The notes under the pieces are model-generated. The model was given only the letters and a program-made list of their open reading frames with translations. It had not been told where the DNA came from and searched no databases. From a virus, in the IMG/VR virus record IMGVR_UViG_3300031857_000912, positions 1 through 30,822 of that record: DNA of 30,822 bases; one strand, given 5' to 3'. The position numbers and the translations under genes are program-made. How positions within the stretch are numbered: the first letter of the stretch is position 1; each line of letters starts with the position of its first letter. This document shows, one piece after another, positions 2,340-30,822 of the stretch.

Positions 2340-4907
2340 ATGGCCGTCGATAAAAGTTTGATGGAGGCTCCCCAAGGCATCGCGGCTATGGCTGCGGAGA
2401 TGGAGCCGATTGAGATTGAGATCGTGGACCCTGAAGAGGTTCGCATCGGCATCGATGGGATGATGATCGAGTTGGAGAAGGCAGAGCCTCGCGCTGAGGA
2501 CTTTGATGCCAACCTCGCCGACTACATGAGCGAGAACGAGCTACAGAGCATGGCCTCTGAACTGATCGGCAACTACGAGCAGGACCTCGCGAGCCGCAAA
2601 GACTGGCTGGATACCTACGTCAAAGGTTTGAAGATTCTGGGTATTCGCTACGAGGATCGGACGGAGCCGTGGCCGGGTGCGTGTGGCGTGTTCCACCCGC
2701 TCCTGATGGAGAGTGCGGTCAAGTTCCAGTCTGAGACGATCATGGAGACGTTCCCGGCGATGGGTCCGGTGAAGACCAAGATTGTCGGCAAAGAAACCCC
2801 GGAGAAGAAAGATTCTGCGATTCGTGTCGGTGACGACATGAACTATCAGTTGACCGAGGTGATGAAGGAGTACCGCCCGGAGCACGAGCGCATGTTGCTC
2901 AGCATGTCTCTTGCCGGTAACGCGTTTAAGAAGGTGTACTACGATCCGTCACTGGGTCGTCAGACTTCGATCTACATCCCCGCCGAAGATATCGTGGTGC
3001 CCTACGGTGCTGCGAACTTAGAAACGGCGGAGCGTGTTACGCACCGGATGCGTAAGACGAAGAATGAACTACACAAACTTCAATACGCTGGGTTCTATCG
3101 GGACGTGGATCTCGGTGAGCCGATGCGTGTCATGGACGAGGTCGAGAAGCAGAAGGCCGAGGATCAAGGCTTTAGTGCTTCGATGGACGACCGGTTCCAG
3201 TTGCTGGAGATGCACGTCAATTTGGACTTGGCGGGCTATCCGGATGTGGACGACGACAACAACGAGACAGGGATCGCACTACCGTACGTGGTGACGATTG
3301 AGAAGGGAACAGGAACGATTCTGGCGATTCGACGAAACTGGAGAGAAGACGATGAACTCAAAGAAAAGCGACAACACTTCGTCCACTACGGATACATTCC
3401 CGGATTTGGATTTTACTATTTCGGCCTTATACACCTCATCGGGGGACATAGTAAGGCTGCAACGTCCCTCCTTCGACAACTTATCGATGCAGGAACTCTC
3501 TCAAATCTCCCCGGAGGACTTAAGTCCCGAGGACTACGTATTAAGGGAGACGATACTCCGATTGCACCGGGAGAGTTCCGAGACGTAGACGTACCTTCGG
3601 GCGCGATCAAGGACAACATCCTTCCGCTTCCGTATAAGGAGCCATCGCAGACTTTGGCGATGTTGATGGACAAGGTGGTCGAGGAAGGCCGCCGCTTCGC
3701 TGCGGTGTCGGATCTGAAGATCTCCGATATGTCCTCGCAGTCTCCGGTGGGCACGACACTCGCTGTACTTGAGCGCGTGTTGAAGGTGATGACGGCGGTG
3801 CAGGCTCGCGTGTACTACGCGATGAAACAGGAGTTCAAGCTCCTCGCCACAATCATCCGAGACAATACGCCAGAGGAGTACAGCTACGAGCCGGAGGTTG
3901 GTAAGGCCAGCGCGAAGAAGTCGGACTACGACAACGTCGATGTCATTCCGGTCTCAGATCCGAACGCGTCCACCATGTCGCAGAAGGTGGTGCAGTACCA
4001 AGCTGTGTTGCAGCTAAGTCAGACCGCGCCGCAGCTTTACGATCTTCCGTATCTACATCGCCAGATGATCGAGACTTTGGGCGTGAAGAACGTCGATAAG
4101 ATCATTCCGATGCCGGAGGATCAGAAGCCTCGCGATCCGGTGACAGAGAACATGGATGCCATCACGGGCAAACCGCTCAAGGCGTTTATGTATCAGGATC
4201 ACGAAGCCCACATCGCAGTGCACATGGCTTTGGGACAAGACCCGAAGATGGCGCAGATGATTGGACAGAATCCGATGGCGCAGCAGATCACATCAACTCT
4301 GCAGGCGCACATCATGGAGCACGTGGCGTTCCAATACCGCCGCGAGATCGAGAAGCAGTTGGGTGCCAGCCTCCCGGCGCTTCCGCAAGACGAGAACGAG
4401 GAGTACGACCTGCCGCCAGAGATCGAGGTTCAACTATCTCAGATCAGTGCTGCGGCAGCAGCGAGACTCCTGCAGAAGGATCAGGCCGAAGTGCAGATGC
4501 AGCAGGCGATGCAGCAGATGCAGGACCCGCTCGTGCAGATGCAGCAGATGGACTTGCAGATCAAACAAATGCAAGCCGAAACCAAGCGGATGCAGGCGCA
4601 GATGGAAGCTCAGGCCAAGCAGGAAGAGCTTCGACTCAGAGAGCAGCAGATCCTGCTCGATGCGGCTTCAAAAGAAGACATCAATCGACTCAGAGAAGCA
4701 GAAATCTCTGGCCGTCAGCAGCTTGAAGCCGCCCGTCTCGGTGCGGAGATTCAGCAGCACAAGGCGGAAGAGTCGAACTATCAGCAACTTGAAGGGACCC
4801 GGTTGGGCGTCGAGATTGCCAAGGCGAAGGACCAACAGGAACAACGCCGGATCAATCCAATGGCTAGCAGTCCCAGATCGAGGAAAGAAGGCCAACCAAA
4901 GGAGTAA
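2340..4907 (+). CDS. portal protein (P22-like type)
   Basis: This is the dodecameric ring at the capsid vertex through which DNA enters and leaves. At 855 residues it is long for a portal, as in P22-type podoviruses. It has AGGAG at 2331-2335 before ATG 2340. The body carries motifs I associate with this family: DWLDTYVKGLKILGIRYEDR with EPWPGACGVFHPLL (about residues 85-120), and the core GYIPGFGFYYFGLIHLIGG followed by RQLIDAGTLSNLPGG. The last 200 residues are Gln/Met/Glu-rich with coiled-coil character (QMQQAMQQMQ), resembling the barrel of long portals. Between about 3300 and 3590 its codons switch towards GGA and CGA, unlike the flanks. A +1-frame open frame with its own ribosome site sits in the same stretch. 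Confidence 0.93.
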   Translation: MAVDKSLMEAPQGIAAMAAEMEPIEIEIVDPEEVRIGIDGMMIELEKAEPRAEDFDANLADYMSENELQSMASELIGNYEQDLASRKDWLDTYVKGLKILGIRYEDRTEPWPGACGVFHPLLMESAVKFQSETIMETFPAMGPVKTKIVGKETPEKKDSAIRVGDDMNYQLTEVMKEYRPEHERMLLSMSLAGNAFKKVYYDPSLGRQTSIYIPAEDIVVPYGAANLETAERVTHRMRKTKNELHKLQYAGFYRDVDLGEPMRVMDEVEKQKAEDQGFSASMDDRFQLLEMHVNLDLAGYPDVDDDNNETGIALPYVVTIEKGTGTILAIRRNWREDDELKEKRQHFVHYGYIPGFGFYYFGLIHLIGGHSKAATSLLRQLIDAGTLSNLPGGLKSRGLRIKGDDTPIAPGEFRDVDVPSGAIKDNILPLPYKEPSQTLAMLMDKVVEEGRRFAAVSDLKISDMSSQSPVGTTLAVLERVLKVMTAVQARVYYAMKQEFKLLATIIRDNTPEEYSYEPEVGKASAKKSDYDNVDVIPVSDPNASTMSQKVVQYQAVLQLSQTAPQLYDLPYLHRQMIETLGVKNVDKIIPMPEDQKPRDPVTENMDAITGKPLKAFMYQDHEAHIAVHMALGQDPKMAQMIGQNPMAQQITSTLQAHIMEHVAFQYRREIEKQLGASLPALPQDENEEYDLPPEIEVQLSQISAAAAARLLQKDQAEVQMQQAMQQMQDPLVQMQQMDLQIKQMQAETKRMQAQMEAQAKQEELRLREQQILLDAASKEDINRLREAEISGRQQLEAARLGAEIQQHKAEESNYQQLEGTRLGVEIAKAKDQQEQRRINPMASSPRSRKEGQPKE
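3352..3588 (+). CDS. candidate overprinted gene inside the portal gene
   Basis: A 78-residue open frame in the +1 frame relative to the portal, over portal residues 338-416. It begins MNSKKSDNTSSTTDTFPDLD and ends RLHRESSET, and is acidic and Ser/Thr-rich with a helical second half (LSMQELSQISPEDLSPEDY). The ATG at 3352 is preceded by GGAGAG at 3340-3345, six bases away, an excellent ribosome site. Over this interval the portal gene abandons its usual GGT/GGC and CGT/CGC codons for GGA and CGA, and its normal usage returns just after the nested stop at 3586-3588, as expected of dual coding. I recognise no family. The alternative is a recombined portal core of different codon bias with a chance open frame. 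Confidence 0.55.
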   Translation: MNSKKSDNTSSTTDTFPDLDFTISALYTSSGDIVRLQRPSFDNLSMQELSQISPEDLSPEDYVLRETILRLHRESSET

Positions 4908-4910
4908 TTA

Positions 4911-5105
4911 ATGGGTTATTCAAACGCTCTGGAATACTTGGACTCAAAACTCCAAGACGAGCGCACATTGATCGTAGAAACGCTGATCCAAGGCAAATTG
5001 GATGAGGCGGAGTACAAAAGACTTTGCGGGGCGTTACAGGGTCTCGACCTCGCACGGAACCACATTAAAGACCTTGCAAAACGCTTGGAGCGCGACGATG
5101 AGTAA
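4911..5105 (+). CDS. hypothetical protein, small, helical
   Basis: A 64-residue protein, preceded by AAGGAG ending at 4902, eight bases before ATG 4911. It looks like two or three amphipathic helices (EYLDSKLQDERTLIVETLIQ, then ALQGLDLARNHIKDLAKRLE) with no recognised motif. The stop overlaps the ATG at 5098 of the GroES-like gene, so the two are probably translated together. Small helical proteins are often found just after phage portal genes. A structural or assembly role is inferred from position only. Confidence 0.8.
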   Translation: MGYSNALEYLDSKLQDERTLIVETLIQGKLDEAEYKRLCGALQGLDLARNHIKDLAKRLERDDE

Positions 5106-14897: not shown

Positions 14898-15941
14898 GTG
14901 GCAGGCGTAATTGTCGCCTTCGACGGTTGGAACGCTTCTGGCGTAGGCTGGGGCGAACAAGGTTGGGGCGAAGGTGTTGGCAATCTTACTGCGACAGGTG
15001 CGGTAGGAACTGTCTCGCTTTCTACTGACCAAGTAATAGTTATTACTGGCCTAGAGGCGACAGGACAACTTGGCATTGTATTTGTAGTTACGGATCAAGT
15101 TTTAGCCGTTACCGGCGTTGCGGGTACGGGGCAGACTGGTGATGTAACGGTAGATACTACTCAGTACGTACTGGTCACAGGTGTTGAAGCTACGGGCGAA
15201 TTGGGCGATGTAGCAGTCATCGCTAATTCCGTTATTGTTAAAGAAGTCGGCGTCGATGCTACCGGGGAACTTGGCACTGTATTTGTAGTTACAGATCAAG
15301 TTCTTGCCGTTACCGGGCTTGAGGCTATAGGCGAGCTAGGCGATGAGATCGTCGTTGCCACGGCGGTAGTAATAGAAGACGGTGTTGAAGGTACGGGAGT
15401 TTTGGGGACTATATCCGTCGTCACGGATCAAGTTCTCGCTGTAACAGGAGTTGCAGCCACCGGGCAGATCGGCACTGTATCTATATTTATTACTACCGCT
15501 GCGGACGTTACTGGGGTATCCGGTACTGGGCAGCTTGGTACGGTAACAGTTGGCGCGGACGCTCCGTTTGCAGTAACCGGAGTAGCAGGTACTGGACAGC
15601 TTGGCGATGAAGTTATTGTTGCTACAGCCGTTGTAATTGAGGACGGCGTTCAGGGCGGCATAATACTTGGAACTGTTTCGTTAGTGCTCGATTGTGTCTT
15701 CCCGGTTACGGGGGTTGGGGCAACGGGCGAACTAGGAACCGTAACTCAAAATTCCGTCTATTTGGTGACGGGCGTGGCAGCGACCGGAGAACTCGGTACT
15801 GTGCACGTAAGGCAGGATAGAATAGTAATTGTGACCGGGGTTTCTGCAACAGGTAATATCGGGTCTCAGTCGCCCGCAGTGAACGTATGGGGTCTGATTA
15901 ATACTAACCAGAGCGCGAACTGGACCCAAATCGCGGCGTGA
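14898..15941 (+). CDS. repeat-rich virion protein, likely fibre
   Basis: A 347-residue protein starting at GTG 14898. It has a short N-terminal region WNASGVGWGEQGWGEGVG, then about 14 copies of a degenerate unit of roughly 20-26 residues built on VTGVxATGxLGTVxV, and a C-terminus with VWGLINTNQSANWTQIA. It has very little charge and no enzyme motif. Such Val/Thr/Gly repeats suit a beta-solenoid or stacked-strand shaft. Codons are AT-richer than those of the capsid genes. It is inferred to be part of a fibre or spike. Confidence 0.78.
   Translation: MAGVIVAFDGWNASGVGWGEQGWGEGVGNLTATGAVGTVSLSTDQVIVITGLEATGQLGIVFVVTDQVLAVTGVAGTGQTGDVTVDTTQYVLVTGVEATGELGDVAVIANSVIVKEVGVDATGELGTVFVVTDQVLAVTGLEAIGELGDEIVVATAVVIEDGVEGTGVLGTISVVTDQVLAVTGVAATGQIGTVSIFITTAADVTGVSGTGQLGTVTVGADAPFAVTGVAGTGQLGDEVIVATAVVIEDGVQGGIILGTVSLVLDCVFPVTGVGATGELGTVTQNSVYLVTGVAATGELGTVHVRQDRIVIVTGVSATGNIGSQSPAVNVWGLINTNQSANWTQIAA
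14980..15860 (+). repeat. degenerate coding repeats in the shaft protein
   Basis: About 14 imperfect units encode VTGVxATGxLG-type modules. The closest nucleotide pair is about 15068-15117 and 15267-15316, sharing TTGGCAxTGTATTTGTAGTT and flanks about 200 bases apart. A second pair of EDGV units is near 15340-15390 and 15605-15660. Paired similarity points to multi-unit duplications after the original repeats diverged. Confidence 0.8.
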
Positions 15942-22325: not shown

Positions 22326-25300
22326 ATGAATCAGCGATATCCTGCGGCGGGGCTTGCGTCCCTTGTAGCCGCTCAAGGCCGTGGACCTGACTCAACTCTA
22401 GTCCACATGACTCCTGCCGAAGTACGAAGCCTGCAGGAATTTGCACGTTCCCAAGGTATGGAACTGCCGGTCAATCCTCAGACCGGAATGCTTGAAGCAG
22501 GTGTGCTGGACACCATCATGCGGTTCTTCACAAGCGCAGGGCGTGTTCTAAAAGATGTTGGCACGGCTGCCATTCAGAACCCACAAGTAACGGGGCTTTT
22601 GGCTGGCACAGCTTACGGCGCGATCAAGGGTGACCTGCAGAAGGGGCTTGAGGCCGGTATGAAAGCCTACGCCGGAGCGACCGTGCTGGGTGGTATCCCT
22701 TCCGTGGCTAGGGGGATGGATCGTCGAGCCGCAGAAAACTATGCCAAGAGCATTGGCATGGAAGGAGACAAGGACACTATTGAAGGGTTCTTGAGCAGTG
22801 TTCCGGCACGTAGTTTAAATCTCCCGCAGACGGTAACTCAGCAACCTCAAGCGGGTGGAACTGCTCAAGGTGGTCCGGGGGGCATTTTCAGCGCACAAAA
22901 CCCACTTATGCAGGCTATTGCCCTGTACGGAATTGATCGTGCGGAGCGTAAAGCGCAAGCCAAGAGTATGCCGACCGCTGAGCCTCAGACGTATATCCCT
23001 GCTACATTTAGTTGGGGACAGGTCAACCCGCGACGTGGCGAACCGGGACAACCATACTTTATTGGTGGGGGTTACACTGCCGGGGCACCGACCACGCAGT
23101 TCCCGGATTACACACGTCCGACTATACCGGCTGGGCAGGCACCACCCGGTCAGGCACCACCTAGGCAACCTCCACCGGGACAACCTAATCAGCAGCTACC
23201 CCGACAGCCGGGGCAGTTTGGCTTTAGAAACCCGTCTGAGCCTGAGCAAAAAACTGCTATGGCTAAGGGGGGCGTGGCCGCATCTTTTGCTGAAGGTGGA
23301 GAAACGGACACCGAAGAACAACGGAGGCGGAAGTATTTCGAGAATCTCCGCCCTTTCGCTCCCGCCCTGACTGATTGGTATCGCACTGACGCTTCAAGCG
23401 TTGGGTCAGTTCAGGGCGTAGATCCGTATAACCGCGATCCGCTTACCCGCCTTACTCAGCCCACTCCTCGCGGGGTGGGTACGGGTATTGGCTCCCTTCA
23501 ACCTTATGACGAGAGTCTTGCTGAGTGGTACAGGTCGCTACTTGTGCCGCCGGTTGGCCGCCCAGCTATAGACTCGACTGATTATTACAAACGAGGCCCG
23601 GCTTCTACTGCGCGACCCATCTTCGGTCCAGTGCCGACATTCGCACCCGAGACTGTGGCTCCGCCGCCCCCGCCGCCCCCGCCTCCTCCACCCCCGCCAC
23701 TTAGTTGTTCGCCGGGGTTTGAATTCAATCCTAGAACGGGCCAATGTGAGCCTGTACGGCCTACGCCGCCGCCAACTCAACAACCGGTTACTTGCCAAGA
23801 CCTTGGCTATCCTCCGGGGTACGATTACAACGCGCAAGGTGAGTGTGTTGCTCCCCCTGAGACCCCGTCTCCGCCCACTCCTACGCCTTCTGTAGGACCC
23901 TTTACTTGCCAAGACCTTGGCTATCCTCCGGGCTATGACTTCAACGAAAAGGGCGAGTGTGTTGCTCCCCCTGAGACCCCGTCTCCGCCCACTCCTACGC
24001 CTTCTGTAGGACCCTTTACTTGCCAAGACCTTGGTTATCCGCCGGGGTATGACTTTGACGAAAACGGTGAATGCTCACCGCCGCCTGAGACTCGGGAGCC
24101 GCCTAGAACACCGTTCCCGCCGGTTTCTTTTGAGCCTCCTGTTGAGACTCAGCCGCCTGATCCTACGCCTGATCCGAAGACGGGTGAGTGTCCGAGCGGG
24201 TGGTATCGCAACGCAGCGACTAACATTTGTATTCCTTACCCGCGACAAGGTTTCTGTCCGCCGGGCTGGTACTTTGACCCGTTCAAGTTGGGTTGCGTTA
24301 AGTACTTTGATCCGACAATTGGCGACCCGACTCCGGGCTGGCCGGGCACAAGTATGCCTCCGTCGCCGCCACCGCCGATAAAGGGCATACCTAATTGTGG
24401 TAAGGGGTTTAAAGAAGGCCCCACGGGCGAAGGCTGCGTACCCGAAGAGATGGAAATTATTGAGATAGGCGAACGAGAAACTTGCCCAGAAGGATATTCA
24501 CGGCAGGGTTCCGTCAAAATTGAAGCTGGTCCAGACGCAGGTAAAACGCGCAGTTTCTGCGGAAAAATGCCGGACATGACTTCAACTCCAACTCGCGTAC
24601 CAAAAAAGCCGGACGGTACGTGCCCTGCTGGGTACCAACCTGAAATTGCACAGGGCGGTTATACGGGTGGATGCATCCTGCAGTCCTACGTTGATGAACA
24701 AGACCGCGATGGTGGCGATGGCGGAGATGGCGGAGATGGTGGAGATGGTGGAGATGGCGGCGGTGGCGATGGCGGCCAACCTTTCTATAAAGTTTGTCCG
24801 GGCGGATCGGTTGTAGCAATTGGAGACAAGTGCCCGACTGTCACCGTGGAAGAAGAAGACATTTGCTGGGGTCCGCGTGGACCTTATCCAAGACATCCTG
24901 AGTATGGCTGCGGTAGACCCCCTGATGAAAAAGGCGCAGCAGGAGGCTATGTGAAGAAAGGTAAGATCAAAAAGAAAAAGTATCAGGCTGGTGGTATCGC
25001 CTCCCTGACCCGTGACCCCAGTCTTGGCGGAGCCGTGAATCCGATGGACGGATACAACTTTGGCTTTGCCTCTGGTGGTATGGCGCAGATGCCGGAATAT
25101 CGCGCTGGTGGTAAGCTCCTGCGTGGTGCAGGGGACGGTATGTCGGACGATATTCCTGCTGTTATTCGCGGGAAAGGTGTTCAGCGTGCTGCACTAGCTG
25201 ACGGCGAGTTCGTCATTCCTGCCGATGTGGTATCGCACCTTGGTAACGGCTCGACTGAAGCAGGAGCCAAGAAGTTGTACAAGATGATGGAACAGATTCG

Positions 25301-25370
25301 CCGTGCACGGACGGGTAAGAGTAAGCAGGCCCCTCGCGTGAATCCTGACAAATACCTGCCGCGTATCTAA
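22326..25370 (+). CDS. large Cys/Pro-repeat virion protein
   Basis: A 1014-residue protein with GGGGGG just before ATG 22326. The N-terminal region (1-160) is helical with a Gly/Ala hydrophobic stretch (TGLLAGTAYGAIKG). The middle has GG-rich motifs, Pro/Gln-rich linkers and a 13-proline tract (446-458). Residues 462-780 carry about eight modules of CxPG[YWF]x(n)GxC type joined by Pro/Thr linkers. Residues 796-817 are Gly-Gly-Asp repeats. The C-terminus (939-1014) holds DDIPAVIRGKGVQRAALADG and DGEFVIPADVVSHLGNG, a region recurrent in phage proteins. Role unknown; an internal or tail-associated virion component is inferred. Confidence 0.82.
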   Translation: MNQRYPAAGLASLVAAQGRGPDSTLVHMTPAEVRSLQEFARSQGMELPVNPQTGMLEAGVLDTIMRFFTSAGRVLKDVGTAAIQNPQVTGLLAGTAYGAIKGDLQKGLEAGMKAYAGATVLGGIPSVARGMDRRAAENYAKSIGMEGDKDTIEGFLSSVPARSLNLPQTVTQQPQAGGTAQGGPGGIFSAQNPLMQAIALYGIDRAERKAQAKSMPTAEPQTYIPATFSWGQVNPRRGEPGQPYFIGGGYTAGAPTTQFPDYTRPTIPAGQAPPGQAPPRQPPPGQPNQQLPRQPGQFGFRNPSEPEQKTAMAKGGVAASFAEGGETDTEEQRRRKYFENLRPFAPALTDWYRTDASSVGSVQGVDPYNRDPLTRLTQPTPRGVGTGIGSLQPYDESLAEWYRSLLVPPVGRPAIDSTDYYKRGPASTARPIFGPVPTFAPETVAPPPPPPPPPPPPPLSCSPGFEFNPRTGQCEPVRPTPPPTQQPVTCQDLGYPPGYDYNAQGECVAPPETPSPPTPTPSVGPFTCQDLGYPPGYDFNEKGECVAPPETPSPPTPTPSVGPFTCQDLGYPPGYDFDENGECSPPPETREPPRTPFPPVSFEPPVETQPPDPTPDPKTGECPSGWYRNAATNICIPYPRQGFCPPGWYFDPFKLGCVKYFDPTIGDPTPGWPGTSMPPSPPPPIKGIPNCGKGFKEGPTGEGCVPEEMEIIEIGERETCPEGYSRQGSVKIEAGPDAGKTRSFCGKMPDMTSTPTRVPKKPDGTCPAGYQPEIAQGGYTGGCILQSYVDEQDRDGGDGGDGGDGGDGGDGGGGDGGQPFYKVCPGGSVVAIGDKCPTVTVEEEDICWGPRGPYPRHPEYGCGRPPDEKGAAGGYVKKGKIKKKKYQAGGIASLTRDPSLGGAVNPMDGYNFGFASGGMAQMPEYRAGGKLLRGAGDGMSDDIPAVIRGKGVQRAALADGEFVIPADVVSHLGNGSTEAGAKKLYKMMEQIRRARTGKSKQAPRVNPDKYLPRI
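23661..23699 (+). repeat. 13-codon polyproline tract
   Basis: Thirteen consecutive proline codons (mixed CCG, CCC, CCT, CCA) at residues 446-458 of the large Cys/Pro protein. Such a run should stall ribosomes without EF-P. Mixed codons suggest amino-acid-level selection, not simple slippage. Confidence 0.95.
23790..24104 (+). repeat. 114-bp tandem repeat (three copies, last partial)
   Basis: Unit starts at 23790, 23904 and 24018, an exact 114-base period (38 residues). Each begins ACTTGCCAAGACCTTGG and encodes TCQDLGYPPGYD...GEC. The first two are nearly identical through the linker; the third diverges after about 85 bases. Probably recent duplication. Confidence 0.95.
24711..24776 (+). repeat. 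Gly-Gly-Asp microsatellite
   Basis: Twenty-two codons of GGN-GGN-GAT type (9-base period) in frame in the large Cys/Pro protein. It is prone to length change, and codes a flexible acidic linker. Confidence 0.92.
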
Positions 25371-25381
25371 CGGAGACTGGC

Positions 25382-26437
25382 ATGTCAACAGCACCTACTT
25401 CGACTGAAACAATCAGCACTACGATCCCGTCTTGGGCAAAAGAACTTTCCCAGCGGATGTTGGGATTTGGTGCTGCGCTGACATTCCCGAAACAGCGGAT
25501 CGATCCTGCAACGGGGCAGCCGATGAAAGATTCGGCGGGCAATCCGATTCTTGAGACAGGGTTTCAGCCTTACGCTGGTGAGCTTGTCGCAGGGGAAAGC
25601 CCTCTTCAGAAGCAGGCTATTTCTGATATCTCGCGGATGCAGGTTGCGCCGCAGACCTCGCAGGCTACAGGCTTCACCGGTCTGGCTGCTTTGCAGGCAC
25701 AAGACTTAGCGCGGTACCGCCCGCTTTCAAGCCGTAGGGAGTATTACCAGTCTCCGTTTACTCAGCCGGAAGGACTTAGTCCTTACATGTCGCCCTACAT
25801 GCAGGGCGTAGTTGAGCAGCAAAAGAAACAGGCAATCGCGGACTATGGACGGCAACTTCCGGGCGTCGCTGCGGCTGCTGCTCGTGCTGGAGCGAAAGGC
25901 GGTACGCGTGAGGCGTTGGTTCGCGCCGAAGGGCAGCGTGGTTTAAATGAGCAGTTGCAGACCATTCAGGCAACCGGACTTCAAAACGCGTATCAGCAGG
26001 CGGTTCAGCAGGCAGCCCAAGATGCTCAGCTTCGCGCTCAGTACGGTCTGGCTGGCACGCAATTAGGTGAGCAGTCTCGTCAGTTCGGTGCAGGTCTTGG
26101 TCTGCAGGGGCTTCAGCAGCAGTTGGCCGCAGCCGGTCAGTTGGGTCAGTTGGGTCAGCAGCAGTTCCAGCAACAGTCAGGCATCCTCCAGCAGCAGTTG
26201 GGCGCAGGCGCTCAGCAGCAGGCACAGAAGCAGGCGGAGTTGTCGTCTGACTATCAACGCTTCATCGACGAGATGACGTACCCGTACAAGCAGTTGGAGT
26301 TCATGTCGAACTTGCTGCGCGGCATCCCGACTGGTGATAAAACGATTAGCACGTACTCGGCCCCGCCCAGTACGATTGGTATGCTGACGGGTATAACGGG
26401 CGGGTTAGGTGGACTGTTTGGCGGATTGGGGAAATAA
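25382..26437 (+). CDS. Gln-rich internal virion / ejection-type protein
   Basis: A 351-residue protein with GGAG at 25372-25375 before ATG 25382. It starts with a Ser/Thr-rich end, then PKQRIDPATGQPMKDSAGNP, a helical Ala/Gln section (PGVAAAAARAGAKGGTREAL) and long Gln/Leu/Gly-rich helices (LQGLQQQLAAAGQLGQLGQ). It closes with FMSNLLRGIPTG and a Gly-rich hydrophobic end (GMLTGITGGLGGLFGGLG) that could insert in a membrane. Composition suits a protein ejected with DNA, but there is no direct family match. It is adjacent to two more large helical proteins. Confidence 0.78.
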   Translation: MSTAPTSTETISTTIPSWAKELSQRMLGFGAALTFPKQRIDPATGQPMKDSAGNPILETGFQPYAGELVAGESPLQKQAISDISRMQVAPQTSQATGFTGLAALQAQDLARYRPLSSRREYYQSPFTQPEGLSPYMSPYMQGVVEQQKKQAIADYGRQLPGVAAAAARAGAKGGTREALVRAEGQRGLNEQLQTIQATGLQNAYQQAVQQAAQDAQLRAQYGLAGTQLGEQSRQFGAGLGLQGLQQQLAAAGQLGQLGQQQFQQQSGILQQQLGAGAQQQAQKQAELSSDYQRFIDEMTYPYKQLEFMSNLLRGIPTGDKTISTYSAPPSTIGMLTGITGGLGGLFGGLGK

Positions 26438-27820: not shown

Positions 27821-30800
27821 ATGCCGTCTCTTGCAGAAATCAGACAGCAATACCCGCAGTATCAGGATCTGTCCGACGAACAACTTGCGCGTGGGCTGTA
27901 CAACAAGTACTACAGCGACATCCCGTATGAGGAGTTTGCGAGCAAGATCGGCTTGCAGCCTCCAAAAGAAGAGTCGGGATTCCTGCGTCAAGCTCTTGAC
28001 GTTCCTGTACAAGCCGCAACCGGTATAGCGACTGGCGTACGTCTGATTGCCGATTCGTTCGGTGCAGATAACCCAGTCTCACAGAATATCCGTGGGGTCG
28101 AGGACTACCTGCAGGGACTGCTGAGCGCCCAAGCCAAAGATGACCAGCAAGAAATTGCTAGGATCATGAAGGCTGCAGAGGATCAAGGCATAGGGGCTAA
28201 CCTTCGCGCAGCGTTGGAAGCTTTTGCCACGGCACCGGTTGATTTGATCGCGCAGGCTGCAGGCACTGCCGTCCCAACGATTGCGGGTGGTCTTGCCGCA
28301 CAGGCACTTAAAGCCCCGGCGCTTCTGGCTTCGACCGGTGTTGGCGCTGTCATGGGTGCAGGCACCGTCAAGAGTTCGATTTACGATGAGGTCAAGCAGA
28401 CGCTGACTGACCTTGGTGCGTCACCTGAAGAAGCCGAAAAGAAGGCGGTGTTAGCCCAAGAGTACGGCGGCGAGAACCTTGATCAGATCCTGCTGGGTAC
28501 CGTGATTGGCGGTGCTGCTGGTCGCTTCGGTATCGAGCCTGCGGTTGCCAAGCAATTGGCTGGCAACATTACTCAGAAGAATCTTGTTAAGGCTGGTCTG
28601 GAGGAAGCTGCACCTGAAGCCCTTCAAGCCGCGCAAGAGCAAGTGGCTCAAAACGTTGCCCTGCAGCGTGAAGGCGTCGATGTCCCCACATTCCGAGGTG
28701 CAGTTGGTGCGGGTGCACTAGAGGCAATAGCAGGTGGGTTCCTTGGTGCTGGGGCTGAAGCAGCCTCACGTCGATTCCGTCCTGAAGCACCTGTAGCCGA
28801 AGAACCTGCGCCAGAAGGGGAAGCCCCTCCGACAGTACCTACCACTGAAGCCGCGCCTGTTGATGAAGAGCGGGCCAAGCTACTCGCTGATATTGAGGAA
28901 GTAGACGAGGCGGCGGCAGACGAAGAAAAGAAGAAGTTTGAAGAGACTGTCCAGAAAGTCACTGAAGGCGAGACTGGCACTGCTTTGAACATCGCCCGCA
29001 CTAAAGTGCAAGAGTCGGGTAAGACTGCTGCGCCGTACATCATGAACGCCGTAAACGCCTACCTCCCTGAAGGTATGGAACGGATTACGATGTCTCAGGC
29101 CAGCCAGATCCGTAAGCAGTTGGTCGATGAAGGCGTCATCCAAGGTAAAGACAAAGTTCGTAAGGCCGCAGTTACTGAACAAAAAGTTGAGCCTATCGAA
29201 GTAGTCAAACCCGCAGAGACGGTTCGTGTTTACCACAGCGGATCACAGGGCGAAGGAGAGACCGGACGTTGGGCTTCTACTGATAAAGAGTACGCCAAGA
29301 ATTACAGGCCGGACATGCCGCTGTTTTATACAGACATACCTGCGGATGACCCGAGAGTACGTAATCTTGACTACCCAGAGCAGGGTATAAAACAGGGCTT
29401 TACGTTTAATTTTGAATTAACACCCGAAGAAGCTACGCGATTAAAACCCGTAGAGACGGAGGTTAAAGATGTATCCGCCGCAGATGCACGAGTTGCTGCA
29501 GAAGCTAAGTCTGAAGAACTTGGAGAGCGCACTAGAGTACCTGTATCTGGAGCAGCAGTGGCCGGAGCTAGACCCGCCCGTCCCAGAACAAGAGTCTCTG
29601 AGAAAGTTATCGACTCAAGAGTGGCGCTTACTCCTGATACTGCTGAACGGATTGATGCAGGAGAAGAGTCAACTCCCCCTGCACTGAAGACTAAGACGGT
29701 CGAAGCCCCGCAGGAGAAGTACGATTCCTTGGAGCGCAGGCTTGAGGGCTTGCGTAACGCCGGACGCATCACGCCAATTCTGCTGAATCGTATCCGTACT
29801 CAACTCAAGCAGGGTAATCCGCTTACTAACCCGGAAGGGTACGAGCCTGTATTGAAGCAGGCCGATGAGATCATCAGTCGGTTTGAAACTGTTGCTGAAG
29901 GCATAGAGTCTGGCGAGTCGGCAGCGGGTATTGACCTCCGCACGCGGCAGTTAAAGCAGCAAGAGCAAGTCGCTCTAGAGAGAGCGCAGCGCCAAATTGA
30001 GCAAGATCGTATTGCCGATTCGTTGCGAGATCAGTACGACCGCGCCCGCACTGAAGAAGAGATTCTACCGAAGCAAGCTCGTAGGCTCCGTCAGGCTTTG
30101 GAGAGTAATGATCTTAAGTCTGTAACTCAGATGCTCGTTGAGCCAGCGTCTGCGGTGGATGCCTACCCGAAGAAGGCGGAAAAGTATCGCCCCATCTTCA
30201 CGTCAGTTGCACGAAAGCTAAACCAAACGGACTTCTCCAACGTCCGTGTCGTGACTGAAGCAACGCCGGGCGCAGACCTCAAGGTATTCAAACGACTCAA
30301 AGATGAATTTAAATTAGCTGAATACGACCCAGCTAATAACACGATGTACGTACGCCGCGACAAGGTGTACTCCAACAACATCATGCACGAGCTTATTCAC
30401 GCAGGCTCGGTGCAGACAATTCGGCAATACGAACTCGACAAGAGCAAACTGACTGACGAGCAGCGACTGGGTGTAGAAAGGCTGATTGGTCTCTATGACT
30501 TCGCGCAGACGCAGGCGGGCGATGTTTCTCTTGTGCGCGAGTTCCCCGAAGCGTTCGACAACGTTTACGAGTTCTTAGCCTACGGCCTGACAAATGCAGC
30601 GTTCCAGTCACGCCTTGCGCGGATCGAAGTATCCATGCCTGTTGGGCGCAAGAACATTTGGACCGAGTTTGTCAAAGCGGTTGCGAATCTGTTCGGGTTG
30701 GACTTCAAGTCGGTCGGTGACGCGTCTGCGCTAAGTGAACTCGGCCAAGCCTTCAGCGAAGTCCTCGCAGCCCCCACTTCTCAGGGGGTAACTGGTGTCA

Positions 30801-30822
30801 GTCCTCTGGCTGGACGAGAGCG
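27821..30822 (+). CDS. large internal (polyvalent-type) protein, ADP-ribosyltransferase-like and HExxH motifs, cut by window end
   Basis: An open frame from ATG 27821 running off the window, at least 1000 residues. A charged N-terminus (PSLAEIRQQYPQYQDLSDEQ) leads to a Gly/Ala hydrophobic region (about 150-190, with AQAAGTAVPTIAGGLAAQAL), then a Pro/Glu linker. Residues 468-530 have VRVYHSGS and WASTDKEYAKNYRPD, resembling ADP-ribosyltransferase domains of phage polyvalent proteins. A disordered linker (about 540-625) overlaps the nested frame at 29469. Residues 856-860 are HELIH, with a candidate third ligand Glu917 in NVYEFLAYG, so a zinc peptidase is plausible. It could be ejected to act in the host. 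No activity is shown. Confidence 0.85.
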   Translation, partial: MPSLAEIRQQYPQYQDLSDEQLARGLYNKYYSDIPYEEFASKIGLQPPKEESGFLRQALDVPVQAATGIATGVRLIADSFGADNPVSQNIRGVEDYLQGLLSAQAKDDQQEIARIMKAAEDQGIGANLRAALEAFATAPVDLIAQAAGTAVPTIAGGLAAQALKAPALLASTGVGAVMGAGTVKSSIYDEVKQTLTDLGASPEEAEKKAVLAQEYGGENLDQILLGTVIGGAAGRFGIEPAVAKQLAGNITQKNLVKAGLEEAAPEALQAAQEQVAQNVALQREGVDVPTFRGAVGAGALEAIAGGFLGAGAEAASRRFRPEAPVAEEPAPEGEAPPTVPTTEAAPVDEERAKLLADIEEVDEAAADEEKKKFEETVQKVTEGETGTALNIARTKVQESGKTAAPYIMNAVNAYLPEGMERITMSQASQIRKQLVDEGVIQGKDKVRKAAVTEQKVEPIEVVKPAETVRVYHSGSQGEGETGRWASTDKEYAKNYRPDMPLFYTDIPADDPRVRNLDYPEQGIKQGFTFNFELTPEEATRLKPVETEVKDVSAADARVAAEAKSEELGERTRVPVSGAAVAGARPARPRTRVSEKVIDSRVALTPDTAERIDAGEESTPPALKTKTVEAPQEKYDSLERRLEGLRNAGRITPILLNRIRTQLKQGNPLTNPEGYEPVLKQADEIISRFETVAEGIESGESAAGIDLRTRQLKQQEQVALERAQRQIEQDRIADSLRDQYDRARTEEEILPKQARRLRQALESNDLKSVTQMLVEPASAVDAYPKKAEKYRPIFTSVARKLNQTDFSNVRVVTEATPGADLKVFKRLKDEFKLAEYDPANNTMYVRRDKVYSNNIMHELIHAGSVQTIRQYELDKSKLTDEQRLGVERLIGLYDFAQTQAGDVSLVREFPEAFDNVYEFLAYGLTNAAFQSRLARIEVSMPVGRKNIWTEFVKAVANLFGLDFKSVGDASALSELGQAFSEVLAAPTSQGVTGVSPLAGRE
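29469..29687 (+). CDS. candidate overprinted gene inside the large polyvalent-type gene
   Basis: A 72-residue open frame in the +1 frame of the large gene. ATG 29469 has a full GGAGG at 29458-29462, six bases upstream. It reads MYPPQMHELLQKLSLKNLES, then ALEYLYLEQQWPELDPPVPE and a helical SLRKLSTQEWRLLLILLNGL followed by a short PLH end: two amphipathic helices round a Pro-rich turn. Its codons (CTG, GAG, CAG, CCG) look like a normal gene, whereas the larger frame here is an Ala/Arg/Glu linker with unusual AGA, GGA and GCA codons. That asymmetry suggests the nested frame is the constrained one. No named family is claimed. Confidence 0.65.
   Translation: MYPPQMHELLQKLSLKNLESALEYLYLEQQWPELDPPVPEQESLRKLSTQEWRLLLILLNGLMQEKSQLPLH

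Follow-up and report, generated by a model that had tools for sequence, protein, structure and literature searches.

A probable overprinted gene family in the linker of giant polyvalent protein genes of uncultured phages

Whether a short reading frame lying out of phase within a long phage gene is a gene in its own right, or an accident of the composition of the sequence that it occupies, is the question raised by the last gene of a 30,822-nucleotide stretch of DNA from IMG/VR record IMGVR_UViG_3300031857_000912. This stretch, referred to here as the window, ends within a giant gene that encloses, entirely and on the same strand, a second open reading frame (ORF) in a different frame (Table 1). 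A first-pass annotation had described this nested ORF as 72 codons in the +1 frame with GGAGG six bases before the ATG, all of which is borne out by the sequence: the spacer between GGAGG and the ATG at 29469 is TTAAAG, the stop codon occupies 29685-29687, and the offset from the start of the enclosing gene at 27821 is 1648, or 549 codons plus 1.

Table 1. Positions of the nested gene, its enclosing gene and neighbouring features in the window
Feature	Position	Strand	Basis
DNA ejection protein, upstream of giant gene	25382..26437	+	phrog_4287, E 4.5e-18
Giant large-polyvalent-protein gene, runs off window end	27821..30822	+	ORF list; 2127 aa in sister contig L001; LPD38 in L001
'VYHSGS...RWASTDKEYAKNYR' domain of giant, immediately upstream of nested gene	29210..29455	+	alignment; downstream of nested gene in L006, L007
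Shine-Dalgarno GGAGG, 6-nt spacer before ATG	29458..29462	+	sequence; family statistics
Giant-protein linker overlapped by nested gene	29468..29687	+	giant frame without detectable purifying selection across family
Nested gene (probable), 72 codons plus stop, +1 frame of giant gene	29469..29687	+	family conservation, selection, codon score
HELIH motif, putative zincin-like metallopeptidase domain of giant	30386..30400	+	motif and alignment

The nested frame and its enclosing gene

Because the window contains 148 ORFs of at least 60 amino acids in its six frames, many of them overlapping longer ORFs, length alone is no proof against chance, and what places the nested ORF beyond chance is comparative evidence: the frame kept across a family, selection, Shine-Dalgarno enrichment and prevalence in giants. 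Codon usage was scored as log-odds per codon. Across the overlap the short frame scored +0.105 and the giant frame -0.099; outside it the giant frame scored +0.180, and the +1 frame upstream within this gene -0.379. In the overlap, the giant frame encodes a linker of low complexity with abundant Gly, Ala, Pro, Val and Thr. Its AGA and GGA codons are indeed rare elsewhere, as had been claimed, making up 9 of 72 codons in the overlap versus 10 of 926 in the rest of the gene within the window, and 70 of 4615 in eleven other window genes.

The enclosing gene had been called a large terminal protein, a name that holds only insofar as this is the last gene in the window; the gene belongs to the large polyvalent proteins. 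Its counterpart in the sister contig L001, identical across the 1000 residues present in the window, encodes 2127 amino acids and contains an LPD38 domain (54.3 bits versus a Pfam cut-off of 27) in a region beyond the window end; the portion of the giant protein encoded in the window had no match to a Pfam model. Among other enclosing giants, LPD38 is present in L049 and LPD39 in L104, with the LPD39 of L095 slightly below the cut-off. A zincin-like metallopeptidase motif was recognized in the window giant by motif and alignment, and of 63 giants examined that carry the nested gene, 60 have an HExxH-type motif downstream of it, the exceptions being L149, with a variant of the motif, and L071 and L152, the sole members of this set in which it is missing. 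The LPD38/LPD39 domains and the HExxH-type zincin-like motif are shared with the large polyvalent proteins of phages treated in PMC5512222, the main text of which contains neither 'overlapping' nor 'alternative frame' and uses 'nested' twice, about a hairpin structure. Similarity to the DarB-like, or PLxRFG, giants of cultured phages such as Serratia phage Parlo involves the C-terminal part, at 22-28% identity to the L119 giant.

The domain that immediately precedes the nested gene ('VYHSGS...GRWASTDKEYAKNYR...FTFNFELTP') has counterparts with 43-70% identity in other long ORFs of L006-L014. It has the look of a mobile module, enzymatic or toxin-like, and may resemble ADP-ribosyltransferase motifs. 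Because the nested frame lies upstream of this domain in L006 and L007 and downstream of it in the window, the neighbouring giant sequence is not the conserved element.

The DNA ejection protein encoded upstream suggests a late, virion-gene setting for the giant gene, and the same gene order is the evidence on which the giant polyvalent protein is probably injected with the phage DNA. From its position within a polyvalent protein gene that follows the ejection protein, the nested gene would likewise be expressed late. Elsewhere in the window, a 216-residue Arg/Ser-rich ORF at 4261-4911, overlapping the portal gene at its Gln-rich C terminus, is probably an artefact of composition; a 347-residue protein at 14898-15941 is built of repeated units of the 'VTGVxATGxLGTVxVxxDQV' type; and a Pro-rich protein of 1014 residues at 22326-25370 has a Gly/Asp repeat as well as 'TCQDLGYPPGYDF...ECVAPPETPSPPTPTPSVGPF' units that recur along it.

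Distribution among relatives

An initial search using the short protein returned the sister contig as the sole match. Relatives of the giant gene yielded matching short frames in L004-L006, to which a pattern search of the loci added L007. A DNA pattern for the motif EWxxLxxLLxxLxxExxxxPLH-stop, blind to gene context, was then scanned in IMG/VR, where its strict form retrieved 33 stretches and its relaxed form at least 120. A profile search found the nested domain in 144 of 155 sources (152 rows), window included. The enclosing long ORF occupies the same relative frame in all 144, so that the short gene is always in the +1 frame. The 11 sources that lack the domain are L008-L017 and L142, the last with a fragment at its end. 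Duplicates are included among the 144: L002 is the record from which the window comes, and L001, L003 and L039 represent a single sister contig. Of the 144, 129 extend 300 bases to both sides, and 101 of those remain at less than 97% nucleotide identity in the last 33 codons. Where the giant ORF is complete (40 nested-bearing loci, duplicates included), it encodes 1659-3204 amino acids.

Compared with L044 and L004, the window gene is 55% and 48% identical in the short frame and 36% and 35% identical in the giant frame over the same stretch, and the giant flanks around the overlap are 57-81% identical in these comparisons. The nearest nested neighbour belongs to the same giant group for 97 of 101 members. 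The first-pass annotation had held that loss of the +1 frame or of the GGAGG/ATG in relatives would speak against a gene; the +1 frame is kept in relatives, and in most the start has a Shine-Dalgarno site. In one locus, L218 (3550-10464), the giant gene is broken across several frames, and the nested gene and an open frame through it are intact. This locus, which lies outside the complete giants counted below, was considered as a free-standing copy and rejected, as an open frame still crosses the nested gene.

Giants were also gathered through their C-terminal 500 residues, regardless of the nested gene. This gave two blast-linked groups of 80 loci each, one being the group of L001 and L049 (LPD38) and the other, taken among the matches listed, that of L104 and L095 (LPD39, just under the cut-off in L095). 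With 53 of the 160 loci left out as incomplete or with ORFs of 1500 amino acids or fewer, 107 giants with a 5'-complete ORF of more than 1500 amino acids were counted among the matches listed. The nested gene is present in 90 of these 107, again among the matches listed (49 of 56 in the LPD38 group and 41 of 51 in the LPD39 group), in all 90 in the +1 frame and in none in another plus-strand frame.

The remaining 17 of the 107 complete giants among the matches listed are without the nested gene, which is thus dispensable in some lineages. No copy was found elsewhere in the records of these 17, which may be fragments and were searched with a query that matched in 6 of 16 records of another set. 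On a tree of the 56 LPD38-group giants, presence and absence require four changes, three of them forced by well-supported branches. This pattern fits an old gene that was lost a few times, and the same tree is compatible with regain. A link to the metallopeptidase, suggested by the motif in 60 of 63 nested-bearing giants, was dropped, as the HExxH-type motif is present in all 107 complete giants whether or not they bear the nested gene.

Selection in the two frames and initiation of translation

The third codon position is normally the freest. In pairs of relatives, variability across the overlap was highest at the third position of the short frame (the first of the giant frame) and lowest at the second position of the short frame (the third of the giant frame), a pattern that was true in all identity bins except the topmost, which held 21 changes. 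Comparison of substitutions in each frame, proposed as a check in the first-pass annotation, was carried out in disjoint pairs with an omega-like ratio (non-synonymous over synonymous changes, both scaled to their expectation). Among loci found with the scan pattern, the overlap (39 disjoint pairs) gave a ratio of 0.38 for the +1 and 1.92 for the giant frame; the upstream flank (16 pairs) gave 0.33 for the giant and 1.42 for the +1 frame, and the downstream flank (9 pairs) 0.51 and 0.89, respectively. Members found by the scan pattern necessarily share the residues that it specifies in the short frame, which raises their identity in the motif, and the test was therefore repeated on loci fetched via the C-terminal region of the giants, some contigs of which are shared with the first set. 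Here, the overlap (27 pairs) gave 0.34 for the +1 and 2.68 for the giant frame, and the part of the overlap outside the scan pattern gave 0.35 and 3.20. The flanks gave 0.39 for the giant and 1.29 for the +1 frame upstream (14 pairs), and 0.55 and 0.94 downstream (12 pairs), the flank controls in both sets using fewer pairs than the overlap and the disjoint pairs not being fully independent.

Selection thus flips frames within the overlap: the short frame is under purifying selection, and the giant frame is without detectable constraint. A chance ORF arising from the biased composition of the Gly/Ala/Pro-rich linker would be in keeping with the low complexity of this linker and with a window full of overlapping ORFs of similar length. 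However, the low ratio in the short frame beside a relaxed giant frame was obtained on loci fetched without the motif, nine positions are invariant in 65 members, with Leu5, Glu11, Ala13 and Pro26 outside the scan pattern, and Shine-Dalgarno matches are enriched before the start, which together make chance scarcely credible.

For this enrichment, the start with the best Shine-Dalgarno match was chosen in each of the 101 members, and the identical choice was applied in 4823 control windows elsewhere in the +1 frame. Matches of at least 6, 5 and 4 nucleotides preceded the start in 51, 77 and 99 members, versus 2.3, 12.5 and 35.9% of the control windows. Sites are weak in some loci: L004 and L029 are without a strong Shine-Dalgarno site, that of L018 is weak, and by the best-start count 2 of the 101 members have none. 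These matches also bear on the idea that the short frame encodes the end of a protein made by programmed +1 frameshifting, in which the N-terminal part of the giant would be fused to the nested sequence. Such a product would agree with the invariable +1 frame and with a broadly similar site in the giant, the nested gene starting at a median of giant residue 513 (range 57-799 in the 102 loci with the giant 5' end). However, the matches lie far above the control, and the +1 frame is open for no more than 62 codons in 11 of 101 members. In L061, L091 and L122 an in-frame stop directly adjoins the ATG, with aaggag or aaggaa just upstream, which rules out frameshifting ahead of the start as the explanation in these members. 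A frameshift origin is accordingly regarded as very improbable.

The nested ORF therefore lies wholly within another gene on the same strand, has initiation signals of its own, as seen in the sequence, the Shine-Dalgarno statistics and the stops abutting the start, and is under selection in the second frame. The proposal of the first-pass annotation that it is a real, separately translated protein gains support from the frame kept, the Shine-Dalgarno site and the purifying selection, and on this comparative evidence is very probably correct, translation itself being what we infer from it. Ribosomes would very probably start at the nested GGAGG/ATG within the message of the giant gene and produce a small, mostly acidic, helical protein, while other ribosomes would read the same bases in the giant frame as the Gly/Ala/Pro/Val/Thr-rich linker.

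The nested protein, its possible role and its origin

The family core has 57 residues and a median net charge of -5 (range -13 to +3), and most members end in PL[HQ]. The protein had been described as helical from its sequence, and the AlphaFold2 model of the window protein agrees (helical, pLDDT 86.3, pTM 0.70); the model of the L022 member (65 rows) gave pLDDT 83.0 and pTM 0.62. A membrane role for the N-terminal part was considered and dropped, as a hydrophobic window was found in 23 of 101 members.

Profile libraries searched with 24 members contained no clear family match, the best E values being 0.05 in PHROGs, 0.0087 in Pfam, 0.041 in NCBIfam and 0.0019 in PADLOC (PDC-M16B, 2 of 24 members). 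The best E value among PDB sequences was 0.1, and Foldseek returned no match at E of 0.001 or below for the nested protein models in PDB or BFVD. Matches in VIA-align to an anti-CRISPR (the best, with Z 4.3, rmsd 4.0 and 64 residues aligned) and to a Bacillus phage protein (Z 4.0, rmsd 5.7, 70 aligned) were too weak to use, and the second model gave one row, with Z 2.4.

A standalone homologue of the 72-residue product, for which a search among phage proteins had been proposed, was not found in INPHARED, PLSDB, GTDB (patterns) or the viral loci. INPHARED gave no match for queries P0001 and the L022 member, PLSDB none for the L022 member, and exact patterns in GTDB genomes 0 hits in strict and 2 in relaxed form, neither of which scores with the family profile. 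A 71-residue o-spanin query served as a positive control and worked. The reach of these searches depends on the query: BLAST with the low-complexity filter recovered 123 of the 144 family loci with the L022 query, 33 with the window protein, which alone is thus weak for distant members, and 4 with L049, the standalone search of which is thus uninformative. No family member was found in the 43-50 kb examined of each of some of the terminase-nearest records (HTVC027P, HTVC023P, DSL-LC04 and 023Pt_psg01, 58-62 kb each), nor was a match to the nested family in the four cultured-phage stretches examined (L157-L160). A literature search of open full texts found no report of this nested gene.

Small genes of this kind are familiar from phages. 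In lambda, Rz1 is nested within Rz, and in phage Parlo an o-spanin lies inside the i-spanin gene. Rz1-like outer-membrane spanins carry a lipobox cysteine near the N terminus; the 72-residue product has no cysteine, and its enclosing gene encodes a polyvalent protein rather than Rz (i-spanin). Gene E of phiX174, within D, is likewise a nested, overprinted phage gene (PMC8227390). As in the phiX174 E/D and lambda Rz1/Rz pairs, a small protein with its own start is encoded in another frame wholly inside a longer gene. Unlike in those pairs, to which no sequence relation was seen, the host gene encodes a giant polyvalent protein, and the overlapped part is a linker on which no constraint is detectable.

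Capture of a separate gene inserted into the linker, with the giant frame reading through it by chance, is rather unlikely relative to birth by overprinting: the nested frame is the constrained one and complete giants without the nested gene exist, as capture would have it, but the collections searched (INPHARED, PLSDB, GTDB genomes by exact pattern and viral loci) hold no standalone homologue.

Two kinds of role may be envisaged. Tentatively, the nested protein might serve its enclosing giant, as a chaperone, a packaging adaptor or a pre-injection restraint. In its broadest form this reading, no less tentative, would describe a hitherto undescribed family that exists only overprinted in giants of uncultured phages and whose product is a cis-encoded partner of an injected, peptidase-bearing giant. 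The partner role is a guess because it is founded on common location and inheritance, for which vertical descent is an equally good explanation. A late role apart from the giant is no less likely, with about an even chance that the gene acts on its own account, in host take-over, lysis timing or counter-defence, and is merely parked in a permissive linker. The giant frame shows no constraint in the overlap, the nested gene is missing in some lineages whose giants retain both the peptidase motif and the C-terminal region, and nothing points directly to contact with the giant. Against such independence, the nested gene was not found outside these giants (144 sources with the domain and, among the matches listed, 107 complete giants), and nearest nested neighbours mostly share a giant group, a pattern that would equally follow from vertical descent.

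Genes nested within others are well known, but this family as a whole seems, within reach of the searches, to exist in a second frame only. Giants whose sequences have diverged widely retain it, in an overlap where the giant frame is without detectable constraint. A gene finder that does not allow long overlaps on one strand would miss such a nested gene, and the linkers of giant phage proteins may merit systematic re-reading. The nested product offers a concrete small protein for testing beside the polyvalent proteins.
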